The notes beneath the pieces are model-generated. The model worked only from the letters and a program-made list of their open reading frames with translations, did not search any database and was not told where the DNA came from. This document shows, piece by piece, positions 27,595-31,940 of a stretch of DNA of 64,000 bases. This DNA is from Pelomonas caseinilytica (GTDB lineage: Bacteria; Pseudomonadota; Gammaproteobacteria; Burkholderiales; Burkholderiaceae_C): the NCBI RefSeq assembly GCF_021353235.1, contig NZ_JAJTWT010000005.1, positions 62,001-126,000 of the forward strand, in the 5' to 3' direction. The position numbers and the translations under genes are program-made. Position 1 is the first letter of the stretch. The number at the start of each line of letters is the position of its first letter.

Positions 27595-27726
27595 GCGTCT
27601 TCAGACTCCTTTACGCGCATCGCGCTACGCTCCCTGTAAGTGCATCAGCCGCAGGCGTCCTCGCAACTGAATTCAGCACCCGCGTCGCGCCCAGTGGCGG
27701 CAGGTCCGGATTGGACCGCGGGCGAA

Positions 27727-28050
27727 GGTATTTGCGAGGGGCCATTGCGAGATCTTGTCGTTGCGTTTGTGGGCTGTCATGAGGGCCGGCTTGGCGCCCT
27801 GGATCAGCTGCGTGCGCAGGTAGTCGTCACCGCGTTTGGTGATACGGCCCAGCACCGTCTTGCCGCCGCTGGAGTTCTGCCTGGGCACCAGCCCCAGCCA
27901 CGAGCCGAACTGCGCGCCGTTCTTGGACTGTGTGAAGTCGCCGATCGTGGCGACGAGCGCCGAGGCGGTCACGGGGCCGATGCCGGCAAGTTGGGCTGCT
28001 GACAGCTTCCAGCCTGCTGCTGATTTGGCGAGCTCTGCTTTGGGCACGAA
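27727..28050 (-). pseudogene. IS110-family transposase, C-terminal fragment
   Basis: About 107 codons match the C-terminal (Transposase_20) domain of IS110 transposases: LAGIGPVTASALVATIGDF, FGSWLGLVPRQNSSGGK, GRITKRGDDYLRTQLIQGAK and ALMTAHKRNDKISQWPLA. The N-terminal RuvC-like domain with its DEDD residues is absent and both ends run into unrelated sequence, so it is a dead remnant. It marks the start of an accessory island inserted beside the core acpS block. Confidence 0.8.
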
Positions 28051-28134
28051 GCTGCCCGGTGACTCAGAAGGCGATAAGCGTGGCCGACAGGAGTCGTCGC
28101 GTCGCAGCGTCACCGCCTGGCCTGGCGCCCGATT

Positions 28135-28461
28135 TCAGTGGCGGTAGTCTTCTTCGCGCTGGTGTCGAACAGCACCCACGACCACGTCGTTGCCGACAAC
28201 TTCGAACAGCACAACATAGCCCGCGCCGCCAAATGGCACGATCAATTCACGCGAGCGGCCATTCCCCAGTTCCGCCTTCCGGCACGTGAAAGGCGACCAG
28301 GACAGTAGACGCATCCCCTCGATGATCGCGTCGAGCGCGCACTGCGGCGTCGTCCAATCCGGCGTTTCACTCGCCAGTTCACGTTCGATGGCGAAGTCCT
28401 CCAGGCGCTGAAGGTCGGCAACTGCCTCTTCGAGCAGCGTGACGCTGTAGACGGGCTTCAC
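28135..28461 (-). CDS. ParE/RelE-superfamily toxin
   Basis: 108 aa. The fold is that of ParE/RelE toxins: an N-terminal strand-helix (YSVTLLEEAVADLQRLEDFAI), then ELGNGRSRELIVPFGGAGYVVLFEVVGNDVVVGAVRHQREEDY with the terminal RHQREED element typical of ParE. The target could be gyrase (ParE) or ribosome-bound mRNA (RelE). Its ATG overlaps the stop of the upstream antitoxin gene by 4 bp. Confidence 0.8.
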   Translation of the reverse strand: MKPVYSVTLLEEAVADLQRLEDFAIERELASETPDWTTPQCALDAIIEGMRLLSWSPFTCRKAELGNGRSRELIVPFGGAGYVVLFEVVGNDVVVGAVRHQREEDYRH

Positions 28462-28742
28462 CGGCCAGTGCGTTCAGCTGCTCGACGTTTCGCGTCGTCA
28501 AGGCGCCCCTGTAAGCCGGCCATGACCTCGTCGACCGTACGGCCGCCGCCTTCTTGCTTCCAACGCTCAATCGCCGCCTCGCCGCGGTTGACGAACTCGG
28601 CCTGCACGCGACGCCAAGCTGCGGCCGCAACGACTGCTTCCTCGATGAACTGGGTCAGCGACTCGCCGTCCCGCAAGACGGCTTCGACTTCGGCCCGAAC
28701 CTCGGGCTTGACGCGGATGGGCGGAAAGGTGGCGGAGCGCAT
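28458..28742 (-). CDS. YlcI/YnfO-type antitoxin
   Basis: 94 aa. It starts MRSATFPPIRVKPEVRAEVEAVLRDGESL, a ribbon-helix-helix-like N-terminal segment followed by long charged helices, as in the YlcI/YnfO antitoxin group. It precedes the ParE-like toxin gene with a 4 bp overlap and should bind both the toxin and its own promoter. The promoter would lie in 28743-28840, an AT-richer stretch. Confidence 0.72.
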   Translation of the reverse strand: MRSATFPPIRVKPEVRAEVEAVLRDGESLTQFIEEAVVAAAAWRRVQAEFVNRGEAAIERWKQEGGGRTVDEVMAGLQGRLDDAKRRAAERTGR

Positions 28743-29306: not shown

Positions 29307-30176
29307 TCAGTGCGTTGTCGACTGTTCTGGCCAAGGAAGACTTTCGTAGAAGGCCTGGACGCGAGCGTATGCATCGTCGAACTGGGGGGGCTTAGTCGCG
29401 ATCAGCGTGACTACTTGCGGATAGTCTCGCTGCGACAGTTCCCGCAGCTGCTCGCTACGCAGTGCCATGGGATCCATCGGCACTTTGCGATCTTCAGAGG
29501 CTGACATCAATTTAGCCAATACGGAAGCCCGGTCTTCATCGTTGAATTCAATGCAATCCAACAAGAGACAGAGGTCGTAGATATCCTGAAATCGAGAGCG
29601 ATTGCGAATTGGCTGCTGCAATACTGAGCGGATTTTCTCGGCAATTAGGTCGTGATAGGCATACATCGCGAGCAGGCCGCCATCAATCTCGCCAGTCTCA
29701 ACGTCTGAGGCCCATTCGTTGAAGCTGTAGTCAATTTGAACTGCTTTGGCGGATTGGCCTGCGGCCAGTTTTTTGAGCTCGTTGGGTACGGCGCGATTTG
29801 CGTAACCAATCTTCATCTGCAGCGTGGCAAAAAGGCTATCTGCTCGCTTCGGATTCAGGACTTGAGATTGCAGCGCAATTGCCAAGCCGTAGTCGTTCTC
29901 AAGACTAACCTGCTCCAAGGCCTTCTGCATTTGATCGATGAAGCCTGGCACATCGACCTCTTGGAGCTTCCGCTGTGTCGAGAAGTCCACGTCCTTAGTG
30001 AACCGAGTACTTTGATACCGGATCGCTAACAAAATCCCACCCTTCATGACCATGATGGGTGCCAGCTTCTCAGACTGAGCAATGGCTCGAAGAATCAGAT
30101 GGACAGCTTGTCGAAATTCGCGACGACCGGCATCGGCTTCCGCTTCGACCCAAGCGACCAAGTTAAGTTTGCTCAT
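29307..30176 (-). CDS. AbiEii/AbiGii-family nucleotidyltransferase toxin
   Basis: 289 aa toxin of the type IV AbiE system. The nucleotidyltransferase motif is clear: MVMKGGILLAIRYQSTRFTKDVDFS (GG-x-R-x-T-x-D-x-D pattern). A later conserved segment is HDLIAEKIRSVLQQPIRNRSRFQDIYDL (Lys and Arg/D contacts). AbiEii toxins stop growth by modifying an RNA target, and can abort phage infection. It overlaps the upstream AbiEi-type gene by 14 bp, so toxin and antitoxin are translated together. The region is visibly lower in GC than the core genes on either side, consistent with horizontal acquisition. Confidence 0.85.
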   Translation of the reverse strand: MSKLNLVAWVEAEADAGRREFRQAVHLILRAIAQSEKLAPIMVMKGGILLAIRYQSTRFTKDVDFSTQRKLQEVDVPGFIDQMQKALEQVSLENDYGLAIALQSQVLNPKRADSLFATLQMKIGYANRAVPNELKKLAAGQSAKAVQIDYSFNEWASDVETGEIDGGLLAMYAYHDLIAEKIRSVLQQPIRNRSRFQDIYDLCLLLDCIEFNDEDRASVLAKLMSASEDRKVPMDPMALRSEQLRELSQRDYPQVVTLIATKPPQFDDAYARVQAFYESLPWPEQSTTH

Positions 30177-31101
30177 TTATGAGGATGGGTACGTTGAGGG
30201 AAAGCGCCCAACGTTCAGAGAAGTCTGCGCTGTAGTCTGCCGACGCATCCAGCTTACGCGAACCGCCACGCTGGGCGAAAGCTGTCCAAGCGTCGATTCT
30301 GACATCACGAATGTGGCATAGGGCTTCAAGAATCCAACCAGCCCGAACCTTCTCGATAGGTTTACCGTGTTGGTCCAACTCATCCAATATTAAGCGCAGT
30401 GAAGACTGCGCGTGTTCCCTAAACACATCTAGGACATGGTTAATGCCACCGCACAACTGGGGCTCGCGTAGCATGTCAAGGAAGGTGCGTCCGCGAGTCG
30501 CGACGCGTATGTGCTGATCTTTCAGATGGCGAAAGGCGCCTAGGTGAATACTGGTGACTTGATGTACAGGCTTCCCAAGTAGCTTCTCCGGTCTTGATCG
30601 CTGCAGCTGCGGTAGCCGCGCATTTATATAGTCGTCAAATTCTGCGCCCAAATCTTTTTGCATTTGCTCATCGGCGAACTCTTTCCACGGGCCGTGAGCA
30701 GGCGATGAGATATATAACTGCTCAGGCATTCGATCCGTAAGACCGTGGAATTCCATAGCGCTGAGATGGGAGATGTAGCAGAAGGGATCTGCCGCACATG
30801 CAAGTACCTTCGCATCAGTTACGGCAGCCCCAATCAGCAGGTAGACCGGTGGGCCTGTGATGCCCGAAATGGGGCGGAGGATGCCATTCCGCAGCATCAA
30901 CTGGTGGTAGCGGTTGAAGGCAGCCCAGTCGAGGTGCGCCTTATGCGCACGAAGCGGTACGCCGTTTAGCTCGGTGCGTTTGCAAAGCCGCCAAGTCGCT
31001 ACTGCAAGTTCGTAGTATGAAACGGTAGGTAGGCCACGCTCACCCAGAACTTGCGCCAAAGCAGCGGGGATGGTGATGCGCTTGTGTTCTTCTGTGCTCA
31101 T
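30163..31101 (-). CDS. AbiEi-type antitoxin/transcriptional repressor
   Basis: 312 aa partner of the AbiEii toxin. The N-terminal part (about residues 1-90) fits a winged-helix domain (ALAQVLGERGLPTVSYYELAVATWRL). The middle carries the segment CYISHLSAMEFHGLTDRMPEQLYIS typical of AbiEi proteins. The ATG at 31101 (MSTEEHKRITIP) is preferred; the open frame extends 41 codons further through a palindrome and lacks protein-like sequence. AbiEi proteins repress their own operon by binding inverted repeats, and three large palindromes lie upstream. Confidence 0.82.
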   Translation of the reverse strand: MSTEEHKRITIPAALAQVLGERGLPTVSYYELAVATWRLCKRTELNGVPLRAHKAHLDWAAFNRYHQLMLRNGILRPISGITGPPVYLLIGAAVTDAKVLACAADPFCYISHLSAMEFHGLTDRMPEQLYISSPAHGPWKEFADEQMQKDLGAEFDDYINARLPQLQRSRPEKLLGKPVHQVTSIHLGAFRHLKDQHIRVATRGRTFLDMLREPQLCGGINHVLDVFREHAQSSLRLILDELDQHGKPIEKVRAGWILEALCHIRDVRIDAWTAFAQRGGSRKLDASADYSADFSERWALSLNVPILINEQT

Positions 31102-31135: not shown

Positions 31136-31176
31136 GGCGGCCTACGCTTCGTCCTTAGGACGAAGCGTAGGCCGCC
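31136..31176. promoter_or_regulatory. Palindrome 1 upstream of the AbiE operon (candidate operator)
   Basis: 41 bp perfect palindrome, arms of 20 bp around a single central T, with core CGTCCTTAGGACG. It begins 35 bp upstream of the AbiEi start codon. On the minus strand a perfect TTGACA (31188-31193) with an 18 bp spacer places a TACGCT -10 element (31164-31169) inside the palindrome, so a bound repressor would block that promoter. Confidence 0.7.
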
Positions 31177-31263
31177 GTATAACCATCTGTCAAGCTTTGA
31201 TTGACCATAGCCTAGATGAGGCAAACGACATGCCTAATCCGCGAAGCAAAAAATCGCGCGCGT

Positions 31264-31300
31264 TGGGATACCCTACGTCCTAAGGACGTAGGGTATCCCA
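31264..31300. repeat. Palindrome 2 sharing the core of palindrome 1
   Basis: 37 bp perfect palindrome, 18 bp arms around a central A, with core CGTCCTAAGGACG. Its outer arms (TGGGATACCCTA) are unrelated to those of palindromes 1 and 3 although each is perfectly self-complementary. Confidence 0.75.
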
Positions 31301-31375
31301 TAAAAGACAACGAGTCAAACGTTGCCCGCACAACTGCTGCCGTCATGGCGAAAAGTCTTCCAAAATGTTGGTCAT

Positions 31376-31412
31376 CTTGCTAGAATGCGTCCTAAGGACG
31401 CATTCTAGCAAG
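31376..31412. repeat. Palindrome 3 sharing the same core
   Basis: 37 bp perfect palindrome, 18 bp arms around a central A, same core CGTCCTAAGGACG, with different outer arms (CTTGCTAGAATG). The centres of the three palindromes are at 31156, 31282 and 31394. Confidence 0.75.
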
Positions 31413-31542: not shown

Positions 31543-31790
31543 ATGTCCTCACGCCGAAGATGTGTTGCTTGCGGCAAGTTGTTCAATGTTCGACCACAGA
31601 TCCCGGATCAGAGCTATTGCGCAGAACCCGCCTGCCAGCGGGAGCGCAAGCGCCTTTGGCAGCAGGAGCGCCGTGTTGCCGACCCGGACTACAAGGACAA
31701 CCAGTCCCGCGCTCAAACGGCTTGGTTGCAGCGGCACCCTGACTATTGGCGGGAGTACCGCGCAAGCCATCCGCCTCGGGGGCCTCGCTG
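31543..31790 (+). pseudogene. Truncated cysteine-rich protein found near mobile elements
   Basis: About 80 residues beginning MSSRRRCVACGKLFNVRPQIP, with Cys pairs (CVAC, YCAEPACQRER) and a run rich in Arg/Gln/Trp (ERKRLWQQERRVADPDYKDNQ, then WLQRHPDYWREYRASHP). I recall this as a small zinc-ribbon-like family of unknown function in many proteobacteria. Similarity ends at about 31785, where an IS21 fragment in another frame begins, so the 3' end is lost. Confidence 0.5.
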
Positions 31791-31796
31791 TGCAGT

Positions 31797-31940
31797 CCCC
31801 ATCGTTCGTTCATGAGGCCCAGCTGCGTCTGGGTCGCAATGCGATGGCCATCTACCAAGAGCTGGTCGATGAGCACGGGTTCGCGAGGCGGTACAACTCC
31901 GTCAAGCGCTTCGTCGGTCGACTGAAGGCCGGGCTCGAAC
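31797..31940 (+). pseudogene. IS21-family IstA transposase fragment
   Basis: About 45 codons match the helix-turn-helix part of IstA: LRLGRNAMAIYQELVDEHGF and YNSVKRFVGRLK. The integrase core and the IstB partner are absent. It is the right edge of the island; the next gene is the convergent ClpP-like protein. Confidence 0.7.

Follow-up and report, generated by a model that had tools for sequence, protein, structure and literature searches.

Palindromes with a fixed core and free but pairing arms at the predicted promoters of an AbiE subfamily

The abiE locus and its palindromes

The window, by which we mean the whole 64,000-nt stretch of Pelomonas caseinilytica DNA analysed here, carries a two-gene AbiE operon on its minus strand. 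The first gene, abiEi (30163–31101, minus strand), encodes an antitoxin and repressor of 312 aa from its ATG that matches PADLOC PDLC02237 (1.5e-98); the second, abiEii (29307–30176, minus strand), encodes the nucleotidyltransferase toxin (Pfam PF08843, 1.2e-24; PADLOC PDLC02306, 2.4e-93), the partner that identifies the pair as a type IV toxin–antitoxin operon. No Pfam family matches AbiEi at an E-value of 0.001, and searching the solved structures with an AbiEi sequence profile gave no match, its relatives there being found by fold search only. The AlphaFold2 model (pLDDT 88.8) comprises a winged-helix N-terminal domain and a nucleotidyltransferase-like C-terminal domain, and resembles Rv2827c (1zel; Z 13.4 over 245 residues, 5.5 Å) and the AbiEi of Streptococcus agalactiae (6y8q; Z 11.2 over 187 residues, 4.3 Å). 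Together with PDLC02237, these fold matches identify the winged helix and the AbiEi C-terminal domain in the protein.

The operon lies within a patch of mobile genes, ahead of a POT transporter and an RNase E gene. An IS110-family transposase fragment (27673–28742, PF02371) adjoins a ParE-like toxin (28135–28461, PF05016), and a small frame upstream of the latter, with no Pfam match, may be its antitoxin. Another small frame (31543–31815) contains two CxxC-like pairs and has no Pfam match; presumably it resembles a protein frequent beside IS21-type elements. The genome holds four AbiEii-type matches, one with an internal stop, and core palindromes were found at the window's locus alone. Searches for a phage origin gave nothing: 50,697 phage records searched by tblastn with one AbiEi returned no match, and none of the 12 stretches given by a viral-contig scan was confirmed.

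Upstream of abiEi lie three perfect palindromes of odd length, none assigned to a strand. Palindrome 1, nearest abiEi, spans 31136–31176 with an arm of 20 and the core CGTCCTTAGGACG at 31150–31162 (centre 31156). Palindrome 2 spans 31264–31300 (arm 18, core CGTCCTAAGGACG at 31276–31288, centre 31282), and palindrome 3, farthest from abiEi, spans 31376–31412 (arm 18, core CGTCCTAAGGACG at 31388–31400, centre 31394). The sequence-only reading had placed three perfect palindromes at exactly these centres and given them one shared 13-bp core; both points stand, the core being CGTCCT[T/A]AGGACG. It had also called the arms unrelated between copies. This holds for most positions of the outer arms, but, counted from the centre, all three copies share a T at position 8 and T-A at positions 13-12, a recurrence that suits a −10 hexamer.

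With DNA folding parameters, palindrome 1 forms a single 19-bp stem with a 3-nt loop (z −9.9), and each of the three forms one DNA stem with a three-base loop (z −8 to −12 against shuffles). In searches for known elements, three sub-threshold miRNA matches fell on the palindromes, as chance matches on a hairpin, and no terminator or T-tract was found.

The core occurs three times in the 5.98-Mb genome, each time at the abiE locus, as found by whole-genome search. Across 462,540 bases of the same genome (about 8% of it, made up of the window and 20 stretches elsewhere), no perfect palindrome other than these three has an arm of at least 13 bp, and the next longest arm is 12. The outcome that would have told against a tie to AbiE, the same palindromes throughout the genome without AbiE genes, thus did not appear. 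Nor do the palindromes behave as a dispersed REP-like repeat or a mobile palindromic element, three copies at a single locus being all that the genome holds.

Linkage to one AbiEi subfamily

Core palindromes of the form TCCTNAGGA, with arms mostly of 18–25 bp, are present in all 42 examined loci that encode this AbiEi subfamily. The loci, a set of 38 with four added later, span Alpha-, Beta- and Gammaproteobacteria and contain one to three core palindromes each, 75 in total; L107 and L108, two stretches that were also read, are not among the 42. The core pattern gave the first hits on nine of the 38 loci, the window and eight more, all of which the AbiEi profile then recovered. Start codons are approximate in L005, L007, L008, L010, L012, L029, L031 and L032, where distances are accordingly rough.

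Within the order, the exact core CGTCCTWAGGACG occurs in 13 of 399 genomes, with arms of 18–25 in nine and of 6–9 in four, the latter as chance would give. An independent profile search found this AbiEi in ten of the 399: the nine long-armed genomes and one more, G049, whose palindrome has the core variant CTGTCCTCAGGACAG and was missed by the CGTCCTWAGGACG pattern. The four short-armed genomes lack this AbiEi. This screen covered the exact CGTCCTWAGGACG core, so that palindromes of the wider form GTCCTNAGGAC, with variant cores, may occur in genomes without this AbiEi. A phylum-wide sample contained the AbiEi in four of 398 genomes, two of them new and both with palindromes. A plasmid search returned about 153 records, of which 28 were examined, chosen for diversity; the plasmid loci range over Paracoccus, Sphingomonas, Acidovorax, Xanthomonas, Serratia, Escherichia and Acinetobacter. 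One of them, L109 (CP057515.1), is a mobilizable plasmid of 4.7 kb from E. coli; it has a Rop-family gene, a whole AbiE operon and two core palindromes.

As a control, we inspected 30 AbiEii loci of other kinds from 150 genomes of the order. None has a perfect palindrome with an arm of at least 12; the operon start is clearly covered in 22, where the adjacent upstream gene, presumed to be AbiEi, is included with its start. The palindromes are therefore a trait of this AbiEi subfamily and not of AbiE at large. The association with AbiE proposed from the sequence is thus strict in the examined set, holding for 42 of 42 AbiEi loci and, in the other direction, for nine of nine long-armed CGTCCTWAGGACG genomes.

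Two loci, L035 and L111, encode AbiEi relatives with no AbiEii in the annotated stretch and still have perfect core palindromes; in L111 the AbiEi open frame is truncated to 217 aa and the palindrome lies about 300 bp before it. Separately, near position 3573 of L031, about 1.2 kb upstream of abiEi, lies a perfect palindrome of arm 17 whose core, GCCATAATGGC, is unrelated.

Recombination sites that fold and whose stems vary are known, and AbiE loci often lie on plasmids and near recombinases, so that the palindromes might be a mobile repeat or a folded recombination site that merely happens to sit upstream of abiE. Against this, the core is found nowhere else in its own genome, the four of 13 core genomes without this AbiEi have arms of 6–9 only, and both the place near the abiEi start and the −35/−10 register described below are kept. 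We regard this explanation as very unlikely.

Core and arm anatomy

We compared 69 palindromes from the 38 loci, a set that leaves out the distal palindrome of L010 because of a core mismatch. TCCT/AGGA does not vary, G/C comes next in 68, and the centre base is A in 31, T in 30, G in four and C in four. Pairing between the arms is almost complete over positions 1–18 (1,237 of 1,242 cells) and has fallen to chance level by position 24; arm length is therefore limited to about two helical turns.

We also counted over 43 representative palindromes from 24 loci, the other 14 loci of the 38 being closely related to these. Over positions 7–18 the representatives pair at 512 of 516 cells, all four failures falling in the distal palindrome of L020. 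Over the same positions, the arm identity of copies is 39% within a locus and 32% across loci, and the information content at positions 14–22 is 0.01–0.22 bits. With near-full pairing, low identity and low information, the arms carry covariation rather than sequence.

The unmirrored states are the distal palindrome of L020, where the arm is 14 only, the core mismatch in the distal palindrome of L010 and position 20 of the proximal palindrome of L037. In addition, one arm in L107 contains a 1-bp insertion, seen also, by span, in 19 Xanthomonas records, and one enterobacterial record shows a mismatch. Just one core palindrome is present in seven of the 38 loci, and L010 makes an eighth if its mismatched second copy is set aside.

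Predicted promoters

The earlier reading had palindrome 1 overlapping a TTGACA-type abiEi promoter. We likewise predict a −35 TTGACA at 31188–31193 (minus strand) and, inside palindrome 1, a −10 TACGCT at 31164–31169 (minus strand) that matches at only three of six positions; the predicted start coincides with the centre of the palindrome. Palindrome 2 has a predicted gene-ward −35 of its own, TTGACT at 31313–31318 (minus strand), which the earlier reading lacked, and palindrome 3 has no gene-ward −35 of at least 5/6. Because the −10 of the window is weak and a generic promoter scan of the window returned nothing at threshold, our call of an abiEi promoter rests on the comparative pattern.

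In that pattern, a −35 matching TTGACA in at least five of six positions, 31–40 nt from the centre, lies on the gene-ward side of 34 of 38 proximal palindromes and on the other side of nine of 38; the remaining four proximal palindromes have no gene-ward −35 of this quality. At a spacing of 16–18 nt, the best −10 reaches 4.1 of 6 where shuffled arms give 2.9; in all 34 proximal palindromes with a −35, transcription is predicted to start between −4 and +5 of the centre. Around distal palindromes, the −35 faces away from abiE in 14 of 31 and toward it in five of 31. The palindromes are thus probably AbiEi operators, with a promoter start predicted within 5 bp of the proximal centre in 34 of 38 loci.

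These promoter predictions also bear on whether RNA is the folded molecule. Transcripts from upstream could cross a palindrome and form an RNA stem that is bound or cut, as an attenuator, an RNase III site or an RNA partner of the toxin or antitoxin. Each unit does fold strongly, albeit as computed with DNA parameters. At positions 19–21, read on the gene strand, the mismatches of the representatives include seven G-T and no A-C, a hint of single-strand tolerance leaning toward RNA and resembling tolerated wobble; however, 20 others there are plain mismatches, related loci share some of them, and further in there is almost no such tolerance. G-T pairs occupy 0 of 602 cells at positions 1–14 and one of 172 at 15–18, so that, despite the opposite lean at positions 19–21, the arms do not show the G-U tolerance of a structured RNA element. 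Moreover, a start at the centre would leave half of the proximal palindrome in its own transcript, seven of 38 loci have one core palindrome only, the distal −35 faces away from abiE more often than toward it, and neither an Rfam family above threshold nor a terminator-like tail was found. We therefore consider RNA hairpins less likely, and improbable overall. Among the readings first offered for this locus (operators, hairpin RNAs, or products of end processing or template switching), an operator combined with template switching fits best, and the RNA hairpin as the selected form does not fit the near-absence of G-T pairs.

Evolution of the arms and centre

Closely related loci record how the palindromes change. 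In seven groups of orthologous loci, changes at positions 1–18 are mirrored in the opposite arm in every comparison save two, both involving the distal palindrome of L020. Across eight sister pairs, hand-picked so as not to overlap, 11 changed arm positions (7–18) are mirrored and two, both in L020, are not. In the same pairs, 13 of 156 half-arm positions differ (8.3%), compared with a mean of 15.6% at fourfold codon sites; mirrored double changes therefore accrue at about half the neutral single-site rate. That the arms change more slowly than fourfold sites points to some constraint on their sequence.

The centre base behaves differently from the arms. It changed in nine of 13 comparisons, against 2.03 expected from fourfold sites (P = 2.6e-4), and seven of the 13 are A–T flips, against 0.35 expected (Poisson P = 1e-7), an excess of about 20-fold. 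Inversion of a perfect odd palindrome alters the centre base alone, to its complement. For plasmid records, the centre state was taken from the match strand; these records are not independent, and the counts are of records rather than events. Of 41 Xanthomonas plasmids, 24 have A and 17 have T at the proximal centre, and the two states follow lineage. Among 52 records of small Klebsiella, Escherichia and Salmonella plasmids with near-identical palindromes, inversion of the centre against its surroundings is seen in two proximal and 11 distal copies; the palindromes are exact over their full length in 51 of 52 (proximal) and 49 of 52 (distal), the rest being cut by record ends or one to three bases off. 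The centre is mostly uniform within lineages, so inversion is not constant.

Arm homogenisation, double substitutions made in one step and loop inversion are the footprint described for template switching in studies on yeast (PMC8604942) and on RNA genes (PMC8794818). Two elements of this footprint are found here: mirrored arm changes, 11 to 2, and loop inversion with unchanged arms, in the seven A–T flips and in the two plus 11 enterobacterial records. This match to the published signature suggests hairpin-mediated template switching, in which the DNA folds and copies itself. The arms do look kept or regenerated as inverted repeats, in line with the earlier proposal.

The same signature would be expected of an ordinary double-stranded operator, in which AbiEi reads the core and perhaps positions 6–8, the core seeds hairpins, the bound repressor stalls replication and switching repeatedly overwrites one arm with the other; folding would then be real but without function. 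Mirrored changes at about half the fourfold rate are quicker than one would expect of selection that needs two independent mutations, positions 14–22 contain almost no sequence information, and unmirrored variants persist in distal copies, all of which are in keeping with this explanation. On the other hand, arms are held tightly to 18–25 in nearly all lineages, none of the examined loci has lost its long arms, and in the 462,540 bases of the genome perfect palindromes with arms of at least 13 are confined to these three, from which it follows that generic switching does not build such arms. We judge a functionless fold to be possible, though on the unlikely side. The narrow range of arm lengths, the retention of the palindromes in all 42 loci and the lack of comparable ones elsewhere favour a functional role for pairing.

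A proposed foldable promoter-operator

Taking these observations together, we propose that the palindromes serve a type IV AbiE operon as promoter and operator at once and act as DNA that can fold, an explanation that we consider, as a whole, about evenly balanced between right and wrong. The proximal palindrome would be centred on the transcription start, with the −10 in its left arm and the −35 just outside, as predicted from sequence. AbiEi, by homology a winged-helix repressor, would read the core TCCTNAGGA, cover some 40–50 bp and shut off its own promoter. The arms would need to pair rather than be read as sequence, the site existing partly as a hairpin or cruciform; folding would expose the core in a stem closed by a 3-base loop and would hide the −10. 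Once a difference arises between the arms, synthesis or repair that uses the folded strand, and whose enzymology we infer, would copy one arm onto the other and might invert the loop. Such copying, with an invertible loop, would explain why arms drift in mirrored steps and why centres flip.

Some findings weigh against the proposal: the known AbiEi operators have conserved arms and are read as double-stranded sequence, the arms here show some constraint on sequence, unmirrored states occur, and four of 38 proximal palindromes have no −35 of at least 5/6. The parts of this proposal differ in strength. Comparison between loci documents the pairing history of the arms, whereas the use of folded DNA by AbiEi is what we infer. 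More tentatively still, and with rather more doubt than confidence, we suggest that AbiEi recognises a hairpin or cruciform at its own start, that the pairing of arms free in sequence is the signal, and that the operon senses folding of its promoter, as under supercoiling, replication or phage takeover; the centre flips would then record folding events.

Discussion

AbiEi-type repressors that regulate themselves through inverted repeats in their own promoters are known from Rv2827c of Mycobacterium tuberculosis (PMC7319586) and AbiEi of S. agalactiae (PMC3985639). The operators of these systems and of S. suis (PMC11062541) are inverted repeats of 23-bp sites with a conserved sequence, read as double-stranded DNA. 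The present loci share with them the repressor encoded upstream of a nucleotidyltransferase toxin, the inverted repeats over the promoter and a similar extent, 2 × 23 bp being near the 37–51 bp of the palindromes. In the known operators the half-sites are alike between sites, and in S. agalactiae the outer 11 bp are exact, with four mismatches over 23 bp and N3 between the half-sites. In the palindromes described here, by contrast, the central 9–13 bp are fixed, the centre is 1 bp, and the arms differ between copies, presumably bound by one protein, yet pair almost perfectly. A search of open-licence papers found no description of palindromes with a fixed core and free arms. That AbiEi operators are inverted repeats was already known; what appears to be new is a variety of AbiEi operator with a fixed core and free, pairing arms.

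Two further likenesses are instructive. Promoters switched by cruciform extrusion have a palindrome that overlaps the core promoter. The palindromes here likewise lie over a predicted core promoter and could in principle hide the −10; unlike those promoters, they add a conserved, protein-linked core. The template-switch footprints (PMC8604942, PMC8794818) have the same homogenised arms, one-step double substitutions and loop inversion, but those papers describe scattered single events, whereas here the events recur at one operator family across bacterial classes.

If our reading is correct, the palindromes would be operators that conserve arm-to-arm pairing instead of arm sequence, a property absent in the known AbiEi operators. 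DNA folding and template switching would gain a natural reporter as well, in which the centre base separates inversion from point mutation, and the 4.7-kb E. coli plasmid with its Rop-family gene carries the whole arrangement. Finally, should AbiEi indeed read folded DNA, this would suggest a way for an abortive-infection system to sense that the state of DNA changes under phage attack.
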